This document shows, piece after piece, positions 12,950-26,341 of a stretch of DNA of 36,210 bases. How positions within the stretch are numbered: position 1 is the first letter of the stretch; each line of letters opens with the position of its first letter. Position numbers and translations under genes: made by a program. The notes beneath the pieces were generated by a model. That model was given only the letters and a program-made list of their open reading frames with translations, was not told the DNA's origin and did not search any database. Source of the DNA: a virus; IMG/VR virus record IMGVR_UViG_3300042563_001725, positions 1 to 36,210 of that record. The stretch is one strand, 5' to 3'.

Positions 12950-13665
12950 TTATCGGGTTGGAGTGGTCCGTATTGATTTTCGATGGATGCGGCAGTGGCC
13001 GGCTTGGTGAATGGCGCATACCCCAGCGTATGCCAGGAGCGCACTGTGGCTTTCCAGTCCTTGATGGTCTTGCCCGCGTTCTGCCAGCCGTTGCCCTGCC
13101 ACTTCCAGAAAGCCGCGGTGCCCTGCGATGGAGCGCATCCGATGGAGATGGCGAATGCCTCCACCTCCTCCGGCGTGGATGCCTTGGCGATGTGGGTTGG
13201 TGGGGTGGCATCGCCACACTCCTTCCCTTCCATGTTCCCTTCCTTTCCATGTTCCTTTCCTTTCCTTTCCTTATGGCACGCGTGGTCATCGCGTGGGTCA
13301 CGCGTGGGGCACGCGTTGGAATCCTTATCCAGTATAGGCTCCGGCAGTTCTGAGGCCCTCTCCTTGTTATTTACGATTTGATGCCGGGAGAACCCCGGAA
13401 TCCACCCAAATTCACCCGTCTCTGTCGCGTATTTCATAACAAAACCACGCGTGGCCAACGCGTGGAGCACGCGTGAAAAGTCCAGTTTATCGTAGGGCAG
13501 AATCTGCACCCCAAGGCGGCGAGGCTCCCACTTAAAGCGGCCCTCCCGGTCAGCCGCACACCATAGCCCAGCAAAGGCAATACGCAGTGGCAGCTTGTGT
13601 TCCACCTCGGCCTCAAAGAGCCGGTCATGAGTAAAAAACTCAGGCTTGATGGTTCGGATTCTCAT
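12931..13665 (-). CDS. O-like / replisome-organiser initiator
   Basis: This 244-aa protein has a winged-helix N-terminal domain: 'MRIRTIKPEFFTHDRL', 'LPLRIAFAGLWCAADREGRF', 'RGFVMKY', 'GWIPGFSRHQ', typical of phage O/DnaD-like initiators. A low-complexity Lys/Glu/Gly linker lies between about residues 130 and 150. The C-terminal half has a Trp-rich part (SIGCAPSQGTAAFWKWQGNGW). Two iteron clusters lie inside the coding sequence (13276-13319 and 13445-13476). It is followed by the DnaC-like loader. Confidence 0.8.
   Translation of the reverse strand: MRIRTIKPEFFTHDRLFEAEVEHKLPLRIAFAGLWCAADREGRFKWEPRRLGVQILPYDKLDFSRVLHALATRGFVMKYATETGEFGWIPGFSRHQIVNNKERASELPEPILDKDSNACPTRDPRDDHACHKERKGKEHGKEGNMEGKECGDATPPTHIAKASTPEEVEAFAISIGCAPSQGTAAFWKWQGNGWQNAGKTIKDWKATVRSWHTLGYAPFTKPATAASIENQYGPLQPDKWKLKA
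13276..13476. other. Candidate replication origin: iterons inside the initiator gene
   Basis: Seven 11-bp units of the type NCACGCGTGGN occur in two arrays, four with core ACGCGT starting at 13278, 13289 (TCGCGT), 13300 and 13311, and three at 13447, 13458 and 13469. The period is exactly 11 in each array. Eleven is not a multiple of three, so the repeats do not arise from repeated amino acids. A pyrimidine-rich TTTCC tract (13220-13272) adjoins the first array. This matches origins such as lambda ori inside gene O. Confidence 0.65.
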
Positions 13666-15863
13666 AGCAGCAAAAGCTGGGATGTGGCATTGGCCAAGTT
13701 CTGGCTAGCCTGGTTGAAATAGGACTCCTTCAGCTCCGACCCCACAAAGCGCCGCCCCATCTGCAGGCTCTTGTATCCCTCCGATCCGATCCCCGTGAAC
13801 GGGCTGTAAACCAGCTCCCCGGGATTCGACCACAGCGCCACCGCCCGCTCGATCACATCGAGCTGCAGCGGGCAGATGTGCCGCTCATCGTTGTTATCCC
13901 GCGCCCCGTCCCGGTTCAGCACATTACCTTGGTCCACCGTCATCCACACCGGGCTGGCCGCTTCCTGCCACCAGTCGATCGGGTAGCTGGATTTATCCTT
14001 CGTCACCGGCACCGGATTATCCCCCGGCGTCTTAAAGATCAGCAGGTAGTCCGCGCACCCCACCCGGCTATTCGTGCTGTCAGAGCACAGCGTCTTGTAG
14101 AGCAGGCCATGCGCCTTCGTCCGCTGCATCTCCGTCACCGGGCTTTTCCAGATACAGATCCGGCTGTGGAACAGGAAGCCATGCCGCCAAAAGGCCCGGA
14201 TCAGCTCCCCGCTGAAGTCCTGAAACTCAATCCGCCCCGTCTTCCACTTCGTGCTCAGGAGGTCCACACAATGAACCGCCACCTCCCGCCCCGGCATCAT
14301 GATCCGCTTCATCTCCGCGATCAGGATTTCAAAGTGCCTCGTAAACTCTGACAAGTCCGCGCAGTTCCCCATATCCTGCAGGTCATCCGAATAGGTAAAC
14401 AAGTCAGCAAACGGCGGCGAGAACACTGAAAAGTGGATCGATCCATCCGGGATCGTCTTGGCCACCCGCACACAGTCCCCGTGGTGCACCGTCCAGCCCT
14501 CGCCCGTCTTGGTTTCGATTTCCGTTTTCATCGTCAGCTTTTTGGTAGTGTTTTCCTTGAAGGCTTTGGCCGCTTGTTTCATGCTGGTTTGCATCTCTTG
14601 GTGTTGAGTGATTTTGCGTTGGATGGATTGGAGGATCGCTCCCTCCGTCGAGGCCTGCACGATCAGCGCCCGCACCGGGTGCACCTGCCCGAAGCGGTAG
14701 CACCGCCGCAGCGCCTGATAGAAGTCCTCGAAAGAATAGGACAGCCCCACAAAAGCGACATTCCGGCAGTGCTGGAAATTCAGGCCATAGCCAAAGATGC
14801 CCGCCTTGCTGATCAGCACCCGCGTCCCTCCGCTGATAAAGTCCAGCGGAGCGCGTTCCTTGTGGCGCGGGTTATCGCTCCCCTTCACCTCCACCGCGTC
14901 AGGGATCGCCAGTTTCAGCTCCTCGCTCTCCTCGTTCGTATTGCACCACACCATCCACTGGTCCGTGCTCCCGTTCACCGCATCCGCCAGTGCCGCCACC
15001 CGCTCCGTCATCGTCATCCGCAGCTCCCGGTGCATCGTCGTAGCCGACAGCGTAGCGTGCCGGAATAGCTGATCCTCCTCCGCCCCCTCCGCCTCATCCA
15101 CCTCCACGATCCGCGTCTCCAGATTCAGCCCCGGCAGATCATATCCCGCATCCTCAAAGCCAATATCCGAAGGCTTGGAAATGCACGCCGCCCAGCTCGC
15201 CAGCCACTTCCAGAACTCCCCCTCCGCGTGCTTCTTCAGCCGCCAGTCCCCCGTGTTGAAGGTGTCATTGATAAAGTAAGTAGCCAGCATCTGCATCGGT
15301 GAGCAAATCCCCAGAAAGTCCGCGTGCTGCCCCAGCTCCGTGTAGTCATTCGGTGATGGCGTAGCCGTGCAGCACAGCCGGTAAGGCGTATCCTTGAATC
15401 GCTCCGTCAGCGCCTTCCGCGTCTTCCCCTGAAAGGACTTCAGGATACTGCTCTCATCCAGCACCACGCCCGCAAACTCGATCCCCTCGAAGTGCTCCAG
15501 CTTCTCGTAGTTCGTGATAAACACCCCGGCCCGATCCACATCATCCCCACTGCCCACCACCTCCGCCGCAATGCCGAACTTCCGCGCCTCCGCCTCCGTC
15601 TGCCTCGCCACCGAAAGCGGCGTCAGGATCAGCACGCATCCCCCGGTATGCTGTGCCACCTGATGCGCCCACTCCAGCTGCTGGATAGTCTTCCCCAGCC
15701 CGCAGTCCTCAAAGAGCGCCGCCCTCCCCTGCCGGATCGCCCAGCCGATCACGTGTTCCTGCCATGGAAAAAGCGGCGCAGTAAACGCCCGCGGTTCAAA
15801 CCCGCACTCCGCCAAAAGGCGTGATTTTGATTGAATAAATTCGTCGTAGTTCAGGTGTTTCAT
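13662..15863 (-). CDS. SNF2-type helicase fused to a beta-class DNA methyltransferase
   Basis: Starting at 15863 (MKHLNYDEFIQSK), this 733-aa protein is a fusion. Residues 1-430 are a superfamily 2 helicase: WQEH (34-37), Walker A CGLGKT (54-59), LDESS (135-139), TATP (166-169), and QALRRCYRFGQ (383-393). Residues 450-733 are an amino-methyltransferase with SPPF (482-485, motif IV) and, near the C-terminus, FTGIGSEG (689-696, motif I). This order suggests the beta class. An internal Met445 with an A/C-rich leader could yield the methyltransferase alone. It could modify or repel host DNA systems. The 110-aa nuclease and zinc-ribbon genes lie upstream. Confidence 0.85.
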   Translation of the reverse strand: MKHLNYDEFIQSKSRLLAECGFEPRAFTAPLFPWQEHVIGWAIRQGRAALFEDCGLGKTIQQLEWAHQVAQHTGGCVLILTPLSVARQTEAEARKFGIAAEVVGSGDDVDRAGVFITNYEKLEHFEGIEFAGVVLDESSILKSFQGKTRKALTERFKDTPYRLCCTATPSPNDYTELGQHADFLGICSPMQMLATYFINDTFNTGDWRLKKHAEGEFWKWLASWAACISKPSDIGFEDAGYDLPGLNLETRIVEVDEAEGAEEDQLFRHATLSATTMHRELRMTMTERVAALADAVNGSTDQWMVWCNTNEESEELKLAIPDAVEVKGSDNPRHKERAPLDFISGGTRVLISKAGIFGYGLNFQHCRNVAFVGLSYSFEDFYQALRRCYRFGQVHPVRALIVQASTEGAILQSIQRKITQHQEMQTSMKQAAKAFKENTTKKLTMKTEIETKTGEGWTVHHGDCVRVAKTIPDGSIHFSVFSPPFADLFTYSDDLQDMGNCADLSEFTRHFEILIAEMKRIMMPGREVAVHCVDLLSTKWKTGRIEFQDFSGELIRAFWRHGFLFHSRICIWKSPVTEMQRTKAHGLLYKTLCSDSTNSRVGCADYLLIFKTPGDNPVPVTKDKSSYPIDWWQEAASPVWMTVDQGNVLNRDGARDNNDERHICPLQLDVIERAVALWSNPGELVYSPFTGIGSEGYKSLQMGRRFVGSELKESYFNQASQNLANATSQLLLL

Positions 15864-15980
15864 TGTTGTGTTGGTGGTGTGATAAGTCAGAAAATAAACC
15901 TGCTCCGTGGATAGGAACCGACGCAGGTGGATCGGCATTCAGAGGGCCAGTGTCCTCACCCTTCCCATCGCTCTCACGGT

Positions 15981-19134: not shown

Positions 19135-20022
19135 TTATTTAGTTGGGGTTGGGAGTTTCTTCCGCAGAGCGGTGATGATTGCGTTGGCTTGGGTTTCGTT
19201 GACTTCAGGGAGGGTTTCGGCAGAGAACTTTTTGAGACATTTGTCGATGAAGTCCTCATCCACCCTGACGGTTTCCAGCAGGTTGGCGATCTCTGCCAGT
19301 TGCTCGGCGGTGGCCAGGCTGATGGGCTTGGCGTCCGCCTCAATGAAGTCCTTTCCGTAGCGGCCGGCGAAGTCGGTAAACTCCAAGCTAAATGACTCCC
19401 CTTCAGGGAATCCCGTCAGGCGGGACTTCCGCACCACCGCCACCCGCTGCGGCCCGCGCTTCGCGCAGTGAAGGCCCAGGTCGATTTCATACATCAGCTT
19501 GTCCCAGACATCAGGCCCCTTGCCGGTCTCAGCCCGCTGGCCGTTCACCAAGCCCCATTCAGAAGCCTCATGAGCGATCAGAACCACGTTCATGTCGAGC
19601 TTGTCGATCCAAGCCACTAGACGCCGCATAAACGCAATCGCTGGCTTCTTGCTGGCTCCGAATGCATCCTTGTCCCCCAGCTTCTCCGCCTCACTTGAGA
19701 TGGCAGTCTGGTAGAGCTTCGTGATGCTGTCGATGATCAGCGTCTTGTAGCCATGCTGCTCCGTGGCCAGCGTCTGGATTTCTGCCAGCACAGTGGAGAA
19801 GTCCAGCGTTCCGTCGCTCGGCCCCATATACACGCCACCGGCTTCCTTGAGACGCGCCTGATAGTGCTTCAGGTCAGCCCCGCCTTCGGTGTCCATGTAA
19901 TACGGTTTCGGGAAAGACAGTCCGAACCAAGTTTTCCCAACCCCGGAAGGGCCGAAGATGATCATTTTTGAGTGGCCTGGTTGAACCTCTTCAGGCTCAC
20001 GGGCTTTGAGTTTGCTGGGCAT
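19135..20022 (-). CDS. Sak4-like RecA-fold recombinase/ATPase
   Basis: This 295-aa protein is an AAA_24-type phage nucleotide-binding protein: Walker A GPSGVGKT (24-31), Walker B LIID (95-98), 'YMDTEGGADL', and a 'VVLIAHE' strand with a following polar loop, as in Sak4-type single-strand annealing or strand-exchange proteins. It ends with a helical C-terminal region. It starts right after the A/C-rich leader AACACAAACCACACAAAC. Together with the SSB-like product it forms a recombination pair. Confidence 0.85.
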   Translation of the reverse strand: MPSKLKAREPEEVQPGHSKMIIFGPSGVGKTWFGLSFPKPYYMDTEGGADLKHYQARLKEAGGVYMGPSDGTLDFSTVLAEIQTLATEQHGYKTLIIDSITKLYQTAISSEAEKLGDKDAFGASKKPAIAFMRRLVAWIDKLDMNVVLIAHEASEWGLVNGQRAETGKGPDVWDKLMYEIDLGLHCAKRGPQRVAVVRKSRLTGFPEGESFSLEFTDFAGRYGKDFIEADAKPISLATAEQLAEIANLLETVRVDEDFIDKCLKKFSAETLPEVNETQANAIITALRKKLPTPTK

Positions 20023-20046
20023 TTTGTTTGTGTGGTTTGTGTTGGG

Positions 20047-20247
20047 TTATTCTGCGGGGATTCCTGTCTTTAATGCAGACTCAATAGCCAAAATCTCTGT
20101 GAATTTGTATCGGATGCAGCTCACCCCAAGTCTGTAGGCCTTCAATTTATTGGACCGCCTCATGCGATGAAGAAACATTGTGCTCACACTCCACCGGTTA
20201 CAGAGTTGTTTGTGAGTAAGAAAAACGGGGTCTTGGTCGGTTGTCAT
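20047..20247 (-). CDS. HTH DNA-binding protein (excisionase/MerR-type)
   Basis: This 66-aa protein has the pattern 'LTHKQLCNRWSVSTMFLHRMRRSNKLKAYRLGVSCIRYK', a short winged-HTH of the excisionase or MerR class. The start follows an A/C-rich leader (CACACAAAACACACACC). It could be an early regulator of the replication block or the Xis protein; it is about 4 kb from the integrase, so Xis is uncertain. Confidence 0.65.
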   Translation of the reverse strand: MTTDQDPVFLTHKQLCNRWSVSTMFLHRMRRSNKLKAYRLGVSCIRYKFTEILAIESALKTGIPAE

Positions 20248-20372
20248 GGTGTGTGTTTTGTGTGGTTTGTGTATTCAGTTAAGAAAGCTGTGCCCCCGGT
20301 CGCCTTAGACTTTTCCGAAGAGAAGACGGCCAAGGGGCATTCCGCCTGAAACAGTCAGGTCGGAAATTTGAT

Positions 20373-20432
20373 CCAGAACCACCGCGCCCATACGCCACCC
20401 CCCGGTATTGTTTGGTTATGCGGCGGTTCTGG
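20373..20432. repeat. Inverted repeat in the 193-base gap (20248-20440)
   Basis: The arms ccagaaccaccgc (20373-20385) and gcggcggttctgg (20420-20432) pair in 12 of 13 positions, with a 34-base loop. The gap otherwise holds a possible 28-codon leader-like ORF on the minus strand starting near 20390 (MGAVVLDQISDL...), which is not strong enough to call. A cis-acting leader or operator upstream of the HTH gene is likely. Confidence 0.35.
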
Positions 20433-20440
20433 AAATTGGT

Positions 20441-20782
20441 TTAGACCGCAACGTGGGTCGAGAGTTTATCTGGCTCCTGCCATTTGCCGATGGTCCGAAG
20501 AAAGGCTTCAGCCTTCTGCGCGGCGGTAGCAAATACCGGCGCTTCGCATTCGGGATTCATGAACAGCAGATTCCGATACTGCCCCCGCTGATCCCAAATC
20601 AGGACAGTCTCTGCGTGATGCATCTCATTGAGATCGTCATGATACCAAGGCACTGCGGCTTTGCGGTAATCTTGGCCGGCTGAATTAGGACGGTTGCCCC
20701 AAATCCTCGCCCCTTCACCGACCTTGATGTCGGACCACCCCAGATGCTCTGCGATGGCGATGTCCATTGCTTCAAAGGTCAT
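20441..20782 (-). CDS. Small phage protein, possible DUF2591-like/ABA-sandwich
   Basis: This 113-aa protein has 'AIAEHLGW', 'GARIWGNRPNSAGQDYR', 'VPWYHDDLNEMHHAE', and a C-terminal 'AQKAEAFLRTIGKW'. The overall pattern (helix, then two strand-helix units with 'A-x-x-x-A-F-L-x-x-x-G-x-W' ending) resembles small phage 'ABA sandwich' proteins that annotate as DUF2591-like. This is recall, not search. TAATG overlap with the following gene. Function unknown. Confidence 0.55.
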   Translation of the reverse strand: MTFEAMDIAIAEHLGWSDIKVGEGARIWGNRPNSAGQDYRKAAVPWYHDDLNEMHHAETVLIWDQRGQYRNLLFMNPECEAPVFATAAQKAEAFLRTIGKWQEPDKLSTHVAV

Positions 20783-20979
20783 TAGTTATTCCCCCTCAGG
20801 TTAAGCCTGCGCCACTCGCGGCGGATCTGTTGGCGGTTTTGCTTTTCAAGCTGGCGGCGTGTATGGCTGATATGCCAGATGCACAGCAGGCCCAGACTGC
20901 CCAGAGTGACGTAAAGAGCGCCAAGGATCATGTCCACTTCGGCCATCTCGCGGATTAGTTGGATTTGATGGATGGTCAT
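20782..20979 (-). CDS. Small membrane protein
   Basis: Starting at 20979 (MTIHQIQLIREMAEV), this 65-aa protein has one hydrophobic helix (about residues 18-36, LGALYVTLGSLGLLCIW) followed by a strongly basic C-terminus. It overlaps both neighbours by one base (TAATG). Likely an inner-membrane protein with its basic tail in the cytoplasm; role unknown. Confidence 0.55.
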   Translation of the reverse strand: MTIHQIQLIREMAEVDMILGALYVTLGSLGLLCIWHISHTRRQLEKQNRQQIRREWRRLNLRGNN

Positions 20980-21182
20980 TAGTTGCCCCTCCGTTCCATG
21001 ATTGCCGTTACGTCCTCGCCCTTGTCCACGTGCATAGTCAGGACTCCGGGCCTTGAATGGTAAAAGATTGTTGAGCAAAGGAAGATGCCGAAGGAAAGTC
21101 CGACCTCCGTGCATGGCGGGAATTGCATGAACCTAAGGACTTCCTGCGTCCAGATAGTGTGGGCTTTGATATTTGAGTGCAT
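20979..21182 (-). CDS. Small protein, unknown
   Basis: This 67-aa protein begins MHSNIKAHTIWTQEVLRF and includes a Cys, several aromatic residues and 'PGVLTMHVDKGEDVTAIMERRGN' at the end. Its stop overlaps the next start by one base. It follows the palindrome at 21208-21224 by about 25 bases. No family recognised. Confidence 0.5.
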   Translation of the reverse strand: MHSNIKAHTIWTQEVLRFMQFPPCTEVGLSFGIFLCSTIFYHSRPGVLTMHVDKGEDVTAIMERRGN

Positions 21183-21207
21183 AATTCGATCTTTGAGTGT
21201 TGGTTTT

Positions 21208-21224
21208 TGACCCGATCCGGGTCA
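21208..21224. promoter_or_regulatory. 17-bp palindrome before the 21182 gene
   Basis: TGACCCG and CGGGTCA form a perfect 7-bp inverted repeat around a 3-base centre (atc). On the minus strand it is followed by A-runs, not T-runs, so it is unlikely to be a terminator. It fits an operator for a dimeric regulator, in the 48-base gap between the 21231 HTH-type gene and the 21182 gene. Confidence 0.45.
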
Positions 21225-21230
21225 GTTAAG

Positions 21231-21440
21231 TCATCGGCTGATCAGGCGCTTCCTGGCCTGCATCACCCCGATAAACTTGGCGGCGAGTTGTCCGTTGATC
21301 CTGATCCCGACGCCGCTCATTTTCTCAGTGGCTTTGTTAAGGCGGCAAGTCCCGGCGCGGATGTGACGGTCGATCTGAGAGACGCTAATCCCGCAGGTTT
21401 CTGCCAGCGTGTGGCGGGAGTAGTATTCGCGGACGTTCAT
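21231..21440 (-). CDS. Small HTH-like DNA-binding protein
   Basis: This 69-aa protein begins MNVREYYSRHTLAETCGISVSQIDRHIRAG, a helix-turn-helix pattern with the recognition helix around 'SVSQIDRHIRAG', then a beta-wing-like segment and a basic C-terminus. It lies between the ParB-like gene and the palindrome at 21208-21224, which could be its target. Confidence 0.55.
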   Translation of the reverse strand: MNVREYYSRHTLAETCGISVSQIDRHIRAGTCRLNKATEKMSGVGIRINGQLAAKFIGVMQARKRLISR

Positions 21441-21449
21441 GGTGTGAGG

Positions 21450-22238
21450 TTACTTCTTGTTTCTTCCGCCAAACTCCCGCTCCTTGGCCGCCTGATCCGC
21501 GAGGAACCGCAAAGGGATAGGTGATCTCGCGTTCTTGTTGTAGATGCCCGCGATGATGTCGGTAAATTCCGGGATCGTGCTGCGGTTCTCTAGTTCGCCT
21601 GGGTGAGTTGCCAGCTTTTTAGCAAAGGCCGCGCAGTCAAACTGAGGAACAAAGAGGCACCGGGAAAGAGCCTTGATGAAGTTGACGGTTCTGATGATTT
21701 TGTTGTTTGGGAACTTCGTCAAGACCGCCGCGATTTTATCAGCGTTTTCTGTGGTCTTGACCTTGAAGTCCCCCGTCTTGACGCGCTTCATGTAGTTGGC
21801 GGAGATGGCAGATTCGCCGGACAACAGAGAGCTTGCGGCAGAGACAGACATTCCCAGCTTCACGTATTCCATCATCTGGATATAGTCAGGATTCCCCCGG
21901 CGAACCTCCAGCGCCACCGTCTCTCCGATCTTCCAAGTGGCCCAGTTCTCAGCCTTGATCAGGTCGATGCTTTCCTCCTTGGTGACATCCTGCATCTCGG
22001 CGGCATAGCCACTGCACTTCAGCGCCAGGCAGGCTTCGCGCCGGTGGTGGCCCCAGATAATGATCTTCTTGCCGTTGTAGACAAAATAGACAATCGGATG
22101 GGATTTCCAAAATCCGTTCTCGCGGATGCTGTCCATGTATTGCTTCACCTTGATGGCTTGGATGATCCGCTGGAAAGGATGCACGTGCAGCGCCTTCAAT
22201 TCTTCCTGCGTGATGATCTTGACGTTTGATAATTTCAT
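21450..22238 (-). CDS. ParB/Srx-fold nuclease-like protein 1
   Basis: This 262-aa protein has an N-terminal ParB-like domain: 'FQRIIQAIKVKQYMDSIRENGFWKSHPIVYFVYNGKKIIIWGHHRREACLALKC'. The GHHRREA motif matches the G-x-x-R-x-x-A signature (positions about 63-69). The middle and C-terminal helices include 'GETVALEVRRGNP' and a long helical region. ParB-fold proteins in phages act as nucleases or DNA-binding regulators. It lies next to a second ParB-like gene, probably co-transcribed. Confidence 0.72.
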   Translation of the reverse strand: MKLSNVKIITQEELKALHVHPFQRIIQAIKVKQYMDSIRENGFWKSHPIVYFVYNGKKIIIWGHHRREACLALKCSGYAAEMQDVTKEESIDLIKAENWATWKIGETVALEVRRGNPDYIQMMEYVKLGMSVSAASSLLSGESAISANYMKRVKTGDFKVKTTENADKIAAVLTKFPNNKIIRTVNFIKALSRCLFVPQFDCAAFAKKLATHPGELENRSTIPEFTDIIAGIYNKNARSPIPLRFLADQAAKEREFGGRNKK

Positions 22239-22269
22239 CGTATTTATTCTTGTGGATTTGGCTTAGTTG

Positions 22270-23067
22270 TTATTTCCCATTAAGGGCCAGCCTTTCGTTG
22301 CAGTGGTCGATTACGGCGCGATAGGCTGGCTCCAATTCTTTGTCGTCGTCTCCGATTCGTTGGAGAGTAGTGATGGCCATGATGGAAATCTCACGGCCAA
22401 GGGCGGGCCGGTAGTTGTTCCTTGGCTTCTTGGCCTCCTTCTCCGGTGGAGCCACGTATTCAAAATCAGGCTTCGGACATGGCGCAGGCTTCCTCGCATC
22501 CTTGATGACAGACGCCGCCTTGTGAACAGAAACCTCACCGGCCCTGACTTGCTCCAGTAGTTCCTTGGGGGCCTCGCCTGACGCGACCGCGTCGAGGATT
22601 ACTTTGCCTTCGTCATATTTCTTTTCTCCGACTCCGGCATCTTTAGCGGATTCGGCGCGGGTGTTGATTGAATTTGCTTCCGGCGATTTCGCCAAAAGCA
22701 ACCCGCCTTGCCCGCCCTGCTGCCGCTCTTTGGCTTGAGCCGCGATGATGACTGACTTCCTAGCGGCAATTCCAATCCGGTCAATGTCAGCTAGGTTCCG
22801 CCGCCCGCCTTGGTTGTCGAGCATCCAGAGCATTACGGCGTTCCGGTCTGGATAGTCAGCCGTGACGATGTGGTTGATCTGATACCCGATCTTGTTCCGG
22901 GTGCAGATGTCGAAACGGTTGTGACCGTCTGCTATCAATCCTTGCCACAGGATGATGGGCGTAGTGCAGCCGTCCTTGAGGATGTTGGCTTCGAGTTTGG
23001 CAAACTCATCAGCGGCCAATGGTGGCAGCAGGTCGCGGAACTCCGGGTCGATGATTGGGATAGACAT
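22270..23067 (-). CDS. ParB/Srx-fold nuclease-like protein 2
   Basis: This 265-aa protein begins MSIPIIDPEFRDLLPPL, with a ParB-like core: 'LEANILKDGCTTPIILWQGLIADGHNRFDICTRNKIG'. The DGHNRFDIC motif corresponds to the G-H-x-R of ParB. A helical, Gln/Gly-rich middle (RQQGGQGG) and a Lys/Pro-rich linker are followed by a C-terminal helix ending NGK. It is divergent from ParB 1 and not a close copy. The leader has no SD. Confidence 0.72.
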   Translation of the reverse strand: MSIPIIDPEFRDLLPPLAADEFAKLEANILKDGCTTPIILWQGLIADGHNRFDICTRNKIGYQINHIVTADYPDRNAVMLWMLDNQGGRRNLADIDRIGIAARKSVIIAAQAKERQQGGQGGLLLAKSPEANSINTRAESAKDAGVGEKKYDEGKVILDAVASGEAPKELLEQVRAGEVSVHKAASVIKDARKPAPCPKPDFEYVAPPEKEAKKPRNNYRPALGREISIMAITTLQRIGDDDKELEPAYRAVIDHCNERLALNGK

Positions 23068-23087
23068 AGTGGTGGTGTAGTATGATT

Positions 23088-23113
23088 CAATATTGCGCCG
23101 TAATATTCTGCGG
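23088..23113. promoter_or_regulatory. AATATT operator-like repeats upstream of the ParB-like gene
   Basis: Two direct repeats, caatattgcgccg (23088-23100) and taatattctgcgg (23101-23113), share AATATT and a GC-rich tail. They lie in the gap between the RHH gene (stop 23128) and the ParB-like 2 gene (start 23067). The same AATATT core recurs in the divergent region at 23331-23405, so both may be sites for one of the RHH proteins. Confidence 0.45.
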
Positions 23114-23127
23114 CAAAAAAATCAGCC

Positions 23128-23328
23128 TCATGGCGCAAGGCGACGACGGCGGATGATTTCCTTGGTCAGAATCCGTTGGAGCACTTGGGATTTGTTGATC
23201 CCGTCTTCTGCGGCAATCCTGCTGAGTTCGATCTCCAGACCCGGCTTGAGACTGGCGCTGATTCTGACTCTGCCTGTCCCAATCCTCTTCAGGTCGCTTG
23301 GCATTTTTGGTTTATTGGCTTTCCGCAT
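23128..23328 (-). CDS. Ribbon-helix-helix (RHH) protein
   Basis: This 66-aa protein has the RHH pattern: 'GRVRISASLKPGLEIELSRIAAEDGINKSQVLQRILTKEI', a beta strand followed by two helices, with a basic tail. RHH proteins bind operators as dimers. The start lies 87 bases from the divergent RHH gene at 23416, with AATATT palindromes between. It is a likely regulator of the early leftward block. Confidence 0.75.
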   Translation of the reverse strand: MRKANKPKMPSDLKRIGTGRVRISASLKPGLEIELSRIAAEDGINKSQVLQRILTKEIIRRRRLAP

Positions 23329-23330
23329 GA

Positions 23331-23402
23331 CGGGATATTACGGCATAATATTATGGGGTCAACACCCCATTTGATTTTTTTTTATCGCACCATAATATTC
23401 CG
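23331..23402. promoter_or_regulatory. AATATT palindrome cluster between two RHH genes
   Basis: The 88-base divergent gap holds cgggatattacgg (23331-23343), the perfect palindrome CATAATATTATG (23344-23355) and ccataatattccg (23390-23402). All share the AATATT or ATATT core. RHH proteins bind such short palindromes. Promoters for both divergent RHH genes should lie in or next to these sites; no confident -35/-10 pair is assigned. Confidence 0.5.
23353..23383 (+). terminator. Hairpin with T9 tract upstream of the + strand RHH gene
   Basis: The arms ATGGGGT (23353-23359) and ACCCCAT (23364-23370) form a 7-bp stem around CAAC, followed by TTGA and T9 (23375-23383). This is a rho-independent terminator shape on the plus strand, located in the leader of the 23416 gene, so it could act as an attenuator. 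It overlaps the 3' half of the AATATT palindrome. Confidence 0.5.
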
Positions 23403-23415
23403 TCGCACGTAACCC

Positions 23416-23643
23416 ATGACCACCCCCACCAGCATGAAACCAAAAGACAAGCCCAGCCGGTCCCCGAAACCCCGCTCCCCCGAAAACACCTCAACGTCCT
23501 TCAGCATCACCCGAAAATTGTTGGAAGAGGCCCGGCAATGGGCCAAGGAAGAAAAGCGGCCGCTGAGTAATTTACTCGCCGTGATCCTTGAGCGAGAGAT
23601 TCTGGAACGTAAGCGCCAGCGGGATGCAACCAAAGAGGGCTGA
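23416..23643 (+). CDS. RHH-type DNA-binding protein
   Basis: This 75-aa protein has a Pro/Lys/Ser-rich flexible N-terminus (about residues 1-26) and an RHH-like C-terminal half: 'STSFSITRKLLEEARQWAKEEKRPLSNLLAVILEREI'. The start at ATG 23416 matches the leader. It is divergent from the RHH gene at 23128-23328 and shares operator-like AATATT sites. Two RHH proteins facing a shared control region suggest a bistable or cross-regulating switch. Confidence 0.7.
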   Translation: MTTPTSMKPKDKPSRSPKPRSPENTSTSFSITRKLLEEARQWAKEEKRPLSNLLAVILEREILERKRQRDATKEG

Positions 23644-23693
23644 ACCCCCAAGCACGGGATCATCCTTGCCTCCCCCGCGCTTCTGTTAGCGGC

Positions 23694-23708
23694 GGGGGGG
23701 GGGGGGGG
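23694..23708 (+). repeat. Poly-G tract (G15)
   Basis: Fifteen guanines follow an imperfect hairpin-like stretch (cccccgc ... gcggcggggg). It lies 51 bases after the RHH gene stop. Such long G tracts are hotspots for slippage, either as a phase-variable element or as a sequencing/assembly error. The remaining 260-base gap (23644-23903) holds no other gene that I can see; an AT-rich stretch (23778-23797) precedes the membrane-protein gene. Confidence 0.55.
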
Positions 23709-23903
23709 ATGTTAGGATTCCACAGAGTATCACCCCACCTCTAATCCCAGCCAAGACTCGACCTTTCCCTCCTTCCAAAATTAATTATTTTTTTAGTTTG
23801 TAACGCTTGGGGAAAAAATCCGTTTGGTGCCGCCGGGTGCGTAGCACGGCCATGCGCATCGTTTTGGCTTGTCGGTTGGCATGAGGCATGATAGACCGCC
23901 CGC

Positions 23904-24281
23904 ATGACCGCCCCGCCCATAATCACCTGCCATGCCTGCCACACCCCCGGCATGGCAATAAAGAGCATGGCCAAATATAGTGGCTGTCTCCAAGTGCTGG
24001 GCATCCCGTTGCTTTTGTTTGGGGTGGTCAATGTGCTCTTCGCCCTGTTCCTTGGCATGATGTCGCTTGCCAGTGGGAACAGGTACGAGCGAAAGGTCGA
24101 GACCGCCGAGCAAGTCCAGTCACGCAAAGCCTCCGAGGTTGTTTCAGGATTCACCAAAGCCTGGGGAGTAACCGCAGGAGCGGCCGGCGTCTTGGGCTTG
24201 ATCGCCGGAGGATCACTGACCCTCACCAAGCGCACCGTCTGGCACTGCAATGCCTGCGGCTCCCAAACTGCCCGCACCTAA
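23904..24281 (+). CDS. Membrane protein with N- and C-terminal zinc-ribbon halves
   Basis: This 125-aa protein has a Cys pair near the N-terminus (CHAC, 9-12), a hydrophobic helix (about 31-57, LGIPLLLFGVVNVLFALFLG), a second hydrophobic stretch (88-105, GVTAGAAGVLGLIAGG) and a second Cys pair at the C-terminus (CNAC). The four cysteines could form one zinc site if both termini lie on the same side of the membrane. It lies immediately upstream of attP and integrase, a common location for lysogenic conversion or superinfection-exclusion genes; function unknown. Confidence 0.6.
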   Translation: MTAPPIITCHACHTPGMAIKSMAKYSGCLQVLGIPLLLFGVVNVLFALFLGMMSLASGNRYERKVETAEQVQSRKASEVVSGFTKAWGVTAGAAGVLGLIAGGSLTLTKRTVWHCNACGSQTART

Positions 24282-24556
24282 TTGCCCCAAATCCCTGCCC
24301 CACGATTGCCCCAAGGCCCCGTAAAACCCTGATCCTCAACGCCAAAAATCCACTGGCAGCGGTTTGGTATCCCGCCTTTCCCCGTAGGATCAGTGGTTGA
24401 TTCTACGGGGAGCCCTCGAAACTAAAAGTCGCATAAAGGCTTGATACTACGCGCATAGTCCGCATAGACTCCGCGTATTATGAGCACCGAATCAGCACGC
24501 GATAAACAGAGTATTGCCCCACGATTGCCCCACGATTGCCCCAAATCATTGCCCCA
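24281..24556 (+). other. attP: Candidate attP: core inverted repeat with arm-type repeats on both sides
   Basis: The ATTGCCCCA motif occurs at 24281, 24294 (cctgcccca), 24305, 24513, 24524, 24535 and 24548, mostly 11 or 13 bases apart. Between the groups, ccccgtaggatca (24380-24392) and tgattctacgggg (24398-24410) pair in 12 of 13 positions around the 5-base gtggt. This is the arrangement expected for a lambda-type attP: a core with inverted integrase sites and direct arm repeats. It stands directly upstream of the integrase. The 24461-24480 region also has a GCATAG direct repeat that could be an Xis site. Confidence 0.6.
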
Positions 24557-24560
24557 GAGC

Positions 24561-25637
24561 ATGAAATGGGAGGGCCGAATCATCCCATTGGAGATGCATG
24601 GTGGAGGCTGGAGAGCCAGGTGCAGGACCAAGGCATTCTCCTGTAACATCAGCACAGGGACGGCATCCTTGCCGGAGGCCAAGCGGATCGTGAAGGCTGC
24701 GCTCGATGACCAGAAAGCGGCCAGTCCGATTGTTCAGCAGGATACCAAGAGCCTGCAATTCCTCGCCGACGCCTACCTCGCCGCCCCGAAACGATCCAGC
24801 GACAGCATCGCCAAGCGGAACGTGTGCAGGCTAAAGTCGGTGGTGCGGGATGGCGCCGGGACCGACTTAGCCGGATTCCAGATTGCCAACCTCCCTGCCC
24901 TCTGGCCTGCCTATGTTGCCAAGCGGCAAGGACTGGATCGTCCAGACTATGCGACCCGGCGCGGCATCAATCGAGGCATCAACTCAGCCATGAGACAAGC
25001 GGCCTGCCTGCTGACCAAGGCCATGGAGCCGCATTACCTGCGCGAGGGGATCATCCTCCCGCCCCACGCCGGCCGAATTTTACTGGCGGCTGAGTCGCCG
25101 AAAGTTCCAGCCGAGGCAGACGATCCGGCATTGATCGAAGCATGGCATGGCCTGCGGGAAGTCGACCTTCCGATGTGGCTGACGGTCGGACTGGCCCGAT
25201 TCGCTGGCCTGCGGCAGTCGGAGATTCTGGCGTTCCGGGGAAAATGGATCGTCAGAAAAGGTGATGCCACCTACGTCCGGTTGCAAGATCGGCCTGAGGA
25301 TGGATTTCAGACCAAGACCGGGATTCCGTATTCGGCCTTGGTGATGGAGCCGGGACTGGCTGAATATCTGCGGGAGATGGACGCGGAGGCCGGAGCGGTG
25401 GCCCTAGTCAACACCATCAAGTGGATCGGGCGGAAGCCTCAAGCCTGGTTGAAGCCGTTCACTGGCGCGGCCCTCTCGCCCCTGCACAGGCTCAGGGGCC
25501 TTTACGCCGACCACGTCAAACGCGAGACCGAGCAGGCCATCCTCGCCCGTCAGGCAGGGATCAAAGCCGCATCCGAGGCGCTGGGCCATACGACGATCGG
25601 CACCACCGTGGATCACTATTTGGATGCGGATTCCTGA
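24561..25637 (+). CDS. int: Tyrosine integrase
   Basis: I prefer the ATG at 24561 (MKWEGRIIPLEMHGG, 358 aa) because the longer frame from 24480 would run through the four arm-type repeats and encode an odd Pro/Cys segment. The catalytic residues are visible: Arg in FAGLRQSEI (218), Lys in QTKTG (about 252), H-x-x-R in LHRLRG (309-312), His in LGHTT (343), and nucleophile Tyr in DHYLD (353). The N-terminal half has an arm-binding/core-binding layout. It is orphan on the plus strand next to attP, so the phage is probably temperate. Confidence 0.92.
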   Translation: MKWEGRIIPLEMHGGGWRARCRTKAFSCNISTGTASLPEAKRIVKAALDDQKAASPIVQQDTKSLQFLADAYLAAPKRSSDSIAKRNVCRLKSVVRDGAGTDLAGFQIANLPALWPAYVAKRQGLDRPDYATRRGINRGINSAMRQAACLLTKAMEPHYLREGIILPPHAGRILLAAESPKVPAEADDPALIEAWHGLREVDLPMWLTVGLARFAGLRQSEILAFRGKWIVRKGDATYVRLQDRPEDGFQTKTGIPYSALVMEPGLAEYLREMDAEAGAVALVNTIKWIGRKPQAWLKPFTGAALSPLHRLRGLYADHVKRETEQAILARQAGIKAASEALGHTTIGTTVDHYLDADS

Positions 25638-25786
25638 GCCAGCAAATCAAGAGCCGCACTGGGATTCACCCCCAGCCACTCACGGGTGGCTGGGAGGATG
25701 CGGAGGGTGAGGCGGACTTTTTGGTCTCCCTTGGGTCGGCCTCCGGTCCCTTTTTGGGGGCCGGGTTTTTTCTTTTGTGAGGTCAT
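25616..25786 (-). CDS. Small basic protein convergent with the integrase
   Basis: This 56-aa ORF, missed by length filters, runs from 25786 (MTSQKKKPGPQKGTGGRPKG) to 25616 and overlaps the integrase 3' end by 22 bases. The sequence is Lys/Gly/Pro-rich then 'VRLTLRILPATREWLGVNPSAALDLLA', like a short RHH-type strand-helix unit. The A/C-rich leader (CCCCAACCCCATG) resembles others here. It could regulate integrase expression by convergence or by binding att DNA. Confidence 0.5.
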   Translation of the reverse strand: MTSQKKKPGPQKGTGGRPKGDQKVRLTLRILPATREWLGVNPSAALDLLAQESASK

Positions 25787-25798
25787 GGGGTTGGGGTT

Positions 25799-26059
25799 TT
25801 AGTCTTCGATCTCAATGCAGTGGATGTGATCGGCGTCCCAAGGGTATTGGTCCGCCTCTTCTGCACTGGCTTCTTGGGCGGTAAACAGGTAAAAAACGGT
25901 GGCTTCCTTTCCGTCGATGACTCCACGCTCTGACCATTCCTGAGGGTCAAAAGCTGAGTCGGCCCCCTGAATAAGTCTGCCAGTAGCGGATGCTCCGGCG
26001 GGGGACGGGTTGAATTTTTGAAAAGCGGTTTTGATGTCTGAGGCAGAGGTGATTTTCAT
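25799..26059 (-). CDS. Small acidic protein, unknown
   Basis: Starting at 26059 (MKITSASDIKTAFQKFNPSP), this 86-aa protein is acidic, with a helical N-terminus, a central 'EATVFYLFTAQEASAEEADQYPWD' part and a C-terminus ending HCIEIED. The leader CCCAGCCCACACCATG is A/C-rich. The gene is co-oriented with the 25786 gene and ends 12 bases upstream of it. No family recognised. Confidence 0.6.
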   Translation of the reverse strand: MKITSASDIKTAFQKFNPSPAGASATGRLIQGADSAFDPQEWSERGVIDGKEATVFYLFTAQEASAEEADQYPWDADHIHCIEIED

Positions 26060-26341
26060 GGTGTGGGCTGGGTTGGGTTGGTGCCGGTTGTTTCCGACGC
26101 CCCACCTTAACGCAGGACTTCCGTACGTCAATAAGTCTTTTCTCTTTTTGGAAGATTATTTTTTAGGGAGGTTCCTTTTCTGTCTCTACAGAAATCCAAG
26201 AAGGCCTTGGATTCTCAAAGCTGTCTGTGCATACGCGAAACTTCCAGCAGCGGTGTTACCCGTTGAACCTGTGGGGATTAGACCCGCCCTACCCCTCCTT
26301 ACGCTAGGGCATGACGGTGCATTTATTGCAAACCGATTACC
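26060..26341. other. Non-coding gap (282 bases) at the end of the late operon
   Basis: No convincing gene was found here. It contains a possible minus-strand promoter for the 26059 gene (TTGACG at 26126-26131 and TAAGGT 16 bases away), an AT-rich stretch (26135-26165) and two adjacent inverted repeats (26177-26213). It separates the leftward tail operon from the leftward small genes and may hold transcription stops and early promoters. Confidence 0.4.
26177..26213 (-). terminator. Tandem hairpins after the tail-tip gene
   Basis: Two adjacent stems lie 129 bases beyond the tail-tip stop: tttctgt/acagaaa (7 bp, 26177-26194) and aatccaag/cttggatt (8 bp, 26193-26213), which share two bases. On the minus strand there is no T run after them, so they may work as a weak or structure-only terminator, or protect the 3' end of the late mRNA. 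Confidence 0.4.

Follow-up and report, generated by a model that had tools for sequence, protein, structure and literature searches.

It has been previously reported that in the attP of mycobacteriophages Pixie and L5, which lies 5' of int, direct arm-type sites flank the core, with two arms on the left and three on the right in Pixie (PMC3203893). In ICEMlSymR7A, a symbiosis ICE of Mesorhizobium, a 283-bp attP with five P/arm sites sits directly upstream of the integrase gene, intS, and the integrase represses its own promoter (PMC11963761). Autoregulation of intS has also been demonstrated in the KplE1 prophage, where the integrase promoter overlaps the recombination site in the attL-intS region (PMC2951348). 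HE-PICIs, satellites aimed at prophage late genes, carry co-oriented doubled motifs at -81 and +132 bp from the attP centre (PMC10111431). For streptococci, a 75-bp att block has been published for GBSInt4 prophages at the HU gene (PMC7487436), and a second published prophage att (PMC11357604) contains the arm word described below, which led us to the cultured phages LF1 (MH853355) and SMP (EF116926).

Here we analysed the virus record IMGVR_UViG_3300042563_001725 over its whole length of 36,210 bases, numbered from 1 (hereafter, the window; Table 1). The stretch 24281-24556 shares with Pixie and L5 direct arm-type sites that flank a core position 5' of int, with ICEMlSymR7A a location directly upstream of the integrase gene, and with KplE1 a candidate integrase promoter that overlaps the recombination site. 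It is distinguished from Pixie and L5 by their other arm consensus and known tRNA attB, and from Pixie also by an extra, oppositely oriented site; the arm consensus of ICEMlSymR7A is TGKTGGTATC, KplE1 combines a TAAA-containing arm motif with an argW tRNA core, and the HE-PICI motif is TGTATTGC. We conclude that this stretch is very probably the attP of a temperate phage, belonging to an ordinary lambda-type attP/int module with an arm-site set that is unusually large for such an attP. Attachment sites of this kind are already known, and the interesting part is the recurrence of the arm word.

Table 1. Positions of the candidate attachment site and of neighbouring elements in the window
Feature	Position	Strand	Basis or remark
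Membrane-protein-like ORF, 125 aa	23904-24281		Stop TAA 24279-24281; upstream of the arrays
Left arm array, putative integrase arm-type (P) sites, 3 direct repeats	24281-24313	+	Repeat inspection and comparison
Imperfect 13-bp inverted repeat with 5-bp spacer, putative core-type sites and crossover region	24380-24410	.	
Candidate promoter of int within attP, sigma-70-like match (TTGATA-18-TAGACT)	24441-24470	+	Weak
TACGCG...CGCGTA inverted repeat and CGCATA repeats across the putative int -10	24449-24478	.	Sequence inspection
Right arm array, putative arm-type (P') sites, 4 exact ATTGCCCCA direct repeats	24513-24556	+	
Tyrosine integrase gene, 385 aa from ATG 24480 or 358 aa from ATG 24561	24480-25637	+	phrog_1 and aligned residues
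Terminator-like hairpin with T-run, about 100 bp past int	25742-25765	+	
HTH_17 protein, candidate directionality factor, distant from int	20047-20247	-	Weak excisionase match

The repeats all read on the plus strand, starting at 24281, 24294 and 24305 in the left array (spacing 13 and 11 bp) and at 24513, 24524, 24535 and 24548 in the right array (11, 11 and 13 bp), and the inner sites are 208 bp apart with the core position between the arrays. Six of the seven sites carry ATTGCCCCA exactly, and the one at 24294, CCTGCCCCA, is a 7/9 copy. An earlier note on this DNA, made from the letters alone, had described these seven sites, three before and four after the core, at 11- and 13-base spacing, and every position was confirmed, with all sites on one strand. 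It had also taken the symmetric spacing of the two arms as what an arm-binding integrase would give; the spacings are real, but near-symmetry by itself is not diagnostic. No further exact copy of ATTGCCCCA occurs on either strand of the 36,210 bases, where about 0.0014 exact copies would be expected in 276 bp, and its six copies within 285 bp make up a stronger local cluster than any other 9-mer forms in the window.

Could the repeats have arisen by chance or as repeats of a coding sequence? The longer int ORF reads through the right array in frame (SIAPRLPHDCPKSLPQS), and IMG/VR does contain coding repeats of the word. However, the top 9-mer in 200 Markov-1 simulations reached two or three copies in 285 bp and never more than three, and the left array, whose first repeat starts on the last base of the upstream ORF (24281), runs past the stop codon of that gene, so that we give this explanation almost no weight. 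We also consider it quite improbable that the repeats are repressor operators, possibly autoregulatory, that serve int and the upstream gene and have no role in recombination: although the two arrays enclose a promoter-like site and the right one overlaps the int start, the left array is placed at the 3' end of the upstream gene, where no promoter is evident, and two co-oriented arrays about 208 bp apart around a core position are the architecture of an attP.

The gene just downstream of the sites encodes a tyrosine integrase, as the earlier note had proposed. It matches phrog_1 (E 6.7e-6, residues 41-382), and alignment with tyrosine recombinases places the catalytic residues at R245, H345-V-K-R348, H370 and Y380, which supply the R, H-x-x-R, H/W and Y of this enzyme class in the adjacent gene. 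Searches of Pfam and NCBIfam returned no match for this protein. Its structure model was poor overall (pLDDT 43) and could not serve as a query for a structure-based search. For a putative N-terminal arm-binding domain, no domain match was obtained; within residues 38-81 the model places three strands plus one helix (local pLDDT 55-71). The earlier note had further argued that the overlap of the longer ORF with the arm sites favours the ATG at 24561. This argument proved weak and not decisive, because arm sites overlap the integrase coding sequence in five of the comparison loci described below (L067, L069, L074, L087 and L096). Third-position G+C is 0.56 in codons 1-27 versus about 0.74 thereafter, which mildly favours 24561, though the repeats themselves constrain this value. 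With either start the region at residues 38-81 would be kept, since the modelled strands begin at residue 38. No evident Shine-Dalgarno sequence was seen in any gene checked, including those with start codons at 19135-23328 on the minus strand, so that none helped to choose the int start. Several leaders are A/C-rich (for example, ACACAAACCACACAAAACACACACC-ATG), and together with the missing Shine-Dalgarno sequences they may point to a host clade that initiates translation without them.

Two promoter-like matches were found in the region versus 0.3 expected. The inverted repeat across the putative int -10 is possibly an operator, for a repressor, or an Xis site. The candidate directionality factor matches HTH_17 with an E-value of 1.5e-5, below the cut-off, and phrog_66 with an E-value of 1.4e-4.

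We then scanned IMG/VR for pairs of ATTGCCCCA 11-13 bp apart and recovered 42 contigs. In six of these (L067, L069, L074, L082, L087 and L096) the pair lies at the end of a tyrosine-integrase gene, at a distance of 0-209 bp from the gene end; they represent five independent integrases, L069 and L087 being relatives. A scrambled control word of the same composition had an integrase alongside in none of 47 contigs under the same integrase model, which was seeded partly from these same integrases. Among the remaining 36 contigs, many carry copies of a single coding repeat, and the word alone is not diagnostic, because most of the pair matches in IMG/VR are coding repeats or clonal copies. Pfam Phage_integrase was matched (E 1e-10 to 1e-21) by L067, L074, L082, L087 and L096, and by L119 from a second scan; of the six, the Pfam scan covered these five, and L069 is nearly identical to L087 in alignment. 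Two of the six loci place the word beside a tRNA: L087 has a partial tRNA enclosed by two arm pairs, and the pair of L067 is found 63 bp past a tRNA-Val gene, between the tRNA 3' end and int. Most of what the second scan, for triple arrays, returned was coding repeats, and it also yielded a true att, L119, where the array separates the 3' end of a tRNA-Met gene from that of int, an arrangement like the attL of a prophage. A further match of that scan, L113, is a phage tRNA cluster with no integrase at the array. The integrases compared share only 15-22% identity with that of the window. Pseudomonas and E. coli relatives of the L119 integrase (about 37%) have no such arrays at the int end, and thus arm specificity changes between relatives.

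The cultured streptococcal phages, with an attP of the HU-gene (GBSInt4) type, provide a close comparison. LF1 and SMP, like the window, carry direct TGCCCCA-type pairs 11 bp apart on both sides of attP, with one TGACCCA and one CGCCCCA among the LF1 sites; related pairs on both sides were found in Str03 (CGCCCCA) and in a Paenibacillus phage (GTCCCCA). The 75-bp block of the GBSInt4 prophages maps to L171:1620-1694 in phage LF1, wholly between the arm pairs. In LF1 and SMP the hup 3'-end block is separated from the inner arms by 69-87 bp on the left and 117-135 bp on the right. The corresponding distances for the centre of the window's inverted repeat, 86 and 122 bp, fall within this core range with the same polarity, and the -86/+122 geometry of the window is similar to the -81/+132 of HE-PICI. 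The two phages differ from the window in having two arms per side rather than three and four, in the placement of int to the left, where its 3' end runs into the left arms, in a core that is the 3' end of hup, and in an unrelated integrase. Separately, we noted that the 28-bp 'att' given for S. agalactiae HU-site prophages (PMC11357604) corresponds to the right arm pair (L171:1801-1828 in LF1) and not to the 75-bp core block; it is probably an arm site mistaken for the crossover.

Taken together, these results support the earlier note's reading of the stretch as an attP with arm sites: the repeats are beyond chance and unique in the window, and the same word with the same tandem spacing flanks the att sites or integrase genes of unrelated phages, the cultured LF1 and SMP among them, in a recurring geometry. 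As in a lambda-Int-type attP, clusters of arm-type repeats stand on both sides of the putative core (three and four). Such an attP is also expected to have inverted core-type sites with a 5-8 bp overlap, for which the inverted repeat, at the expected position, is a candidate with a putative crossover. We found no report in the literature of the ATTGCCCCA word as a shared arm class.

The inverted repeat itself, CCCCGTAGGATCA-GTGGT-TGATTCTACGGGG, was correctly described in the earlier note as 13-bp halves five bases apart between the two arrays: the halves (24380-24392 and 24398-24410) pair at 12 of 13 positions with one mismatch. An equally good reading has 12-bp arms and a 7-bp spacer, AGTGGTT, and the repeat can be extended to 14 nt at 93%. 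Just one other inverted repeat in the window is of comparable quality. No tRNA or other RNA was found in the core, and the 17-mers of the core half-sites had two chance matches in IMG/VR, both in unrelated coding genes. The proposal that this repeat is the core fits the arm-core distances of LF1, SMP and HE-PICI, by which it is placed at the core position, and this position is its only support; the crossover is likewise placed by position because host, attB and junctions were not found. On these comparisons, we regard the inverted repeat as probably the core.

A less probable explanation keeps these arms for the attP but places the core elsewhere in 24314-24512, with the inverted repeat acting as an insulating hairpin or as an operator bound by Xis or a repressor. 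Terminator hairpins lie between arm and core in LF1, SMP, L087 and L096, and cluster K phage CrimD likewise has a hairpin between arm and core (PMC3203893). As RNA, the inverted repeat would also fold into a strong hairpin (-28.1 kcal/mol over a 71-nt stretch, z -3) that could serve the upstream gene ending at 24281. On the other side, neither strand has a U-tract and no terminator was called here, and the centre of the repeat falls at the core position predicted from LF1 and SMP. A canonical intrinsic terminator, with a GC-rich hairpin and a U-tract, was rejected for this repeat.

The late genes of the window and a 97% relative (G006, spanning window position 26253 round to 22380) make it evident that the genome is permuted. 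The record therefore seems to represent phage DNA that is free or excised, and such a form should carry an intact attP. None of the sister contigs (TerL 97-99%) spans the int region, G006 and G007 both ending in or before it (22380-26253), and thus no attP was found in near relatives. A more distant relative (G009, TerL 63%) has a different, unrelated integrase beside terL (L061:16003-17241, minus strand) and lacks these arms, which indicates that members of this phage group have swapped integration modules. No close relative of the window integrase was found in IMG/VR, GTDB species genomes, or phage or plasmid records, and none of 84,980 species genomes contained kin of it. TerL kin in genomes reach 44% at most: those at 43-44% come from proteobacterial MAGs, chiefly alphaproteobacterial ones, and one Clostridium MAG has a relative at 29%; the arm pair was absent from 385 genomes of one class with TerL kin. 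The inter-arm region had no match among phages and plasmids, and BLAST of the arm array in phages gave a chance match only. As a separate observation, about three dozen IMG/VR contigs that otherwise have little in common with the window share its 758-aa helicase/methyltransferase-like protein (13662-15938, minus strand), at identities of about 66-74%.

The short direct repeats at about helical spacing, with two ParB-like genes near by (21450-23067), could also be viewed as iterons of a replication origin or as sites of a ParB-like protein in a phage that persists as a plasmid. We consider this highly improbable: no replication initiator or ParA was found among the window proteins scanned, the ParB-like proteins match nuclease/partition-like phage families, unrelated phages carry this word on the flanks of integrases and of tRNA or hup cores, and the integrase begins inside the array.

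For the attP, a mechanism can be proposed by analogy with lambda-type integrases. The integrase would use its N-terminal domain to contact the tandem ATTGCCCCA arm sites, three on the left and four on the right, and the mostly 11-bp spacing, about one helical turn, would place neighbouring protomers on one face of the DNA. The C-terminal domain would bind both halves of the inverted repeat, so that N-domains on the arms and C-domains on the repeat may together build an intasome, with strand exchange with the host attB predicted within the spacer of 5-7 bp. Integration would leave the left arms and the small membrane-protein gene at one end of the prophage, and the right arms and int at the other. 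Bound integrase would probably repress its own gene, as in KplE1 and ICEMlSymR7A, since both the putative promoter and the right arms are situated between int and the core.

We lean towards the view that tandem copies of (A)TTGCCCCA, about 11 bp apart, form a widespread class of arm sites for tyrosine integrases with little shared sequence, so that a single short arm word marks the attachment sites of unrelated integrases. If this is true, arm-binding specificity has been conserved or repeatedly acquired, and the word could locate attP, attL and attR in sequence data when neither the host nor attB is known. It could also help to delimit prophages and prevent arm pairs from being taken as the crossover. 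For the phage itself, which represents an uncultivated temperate family with an integrase that Pfam misses, the analysis points to the probable insertion site and offers the arms, core and promoter as exact targets.
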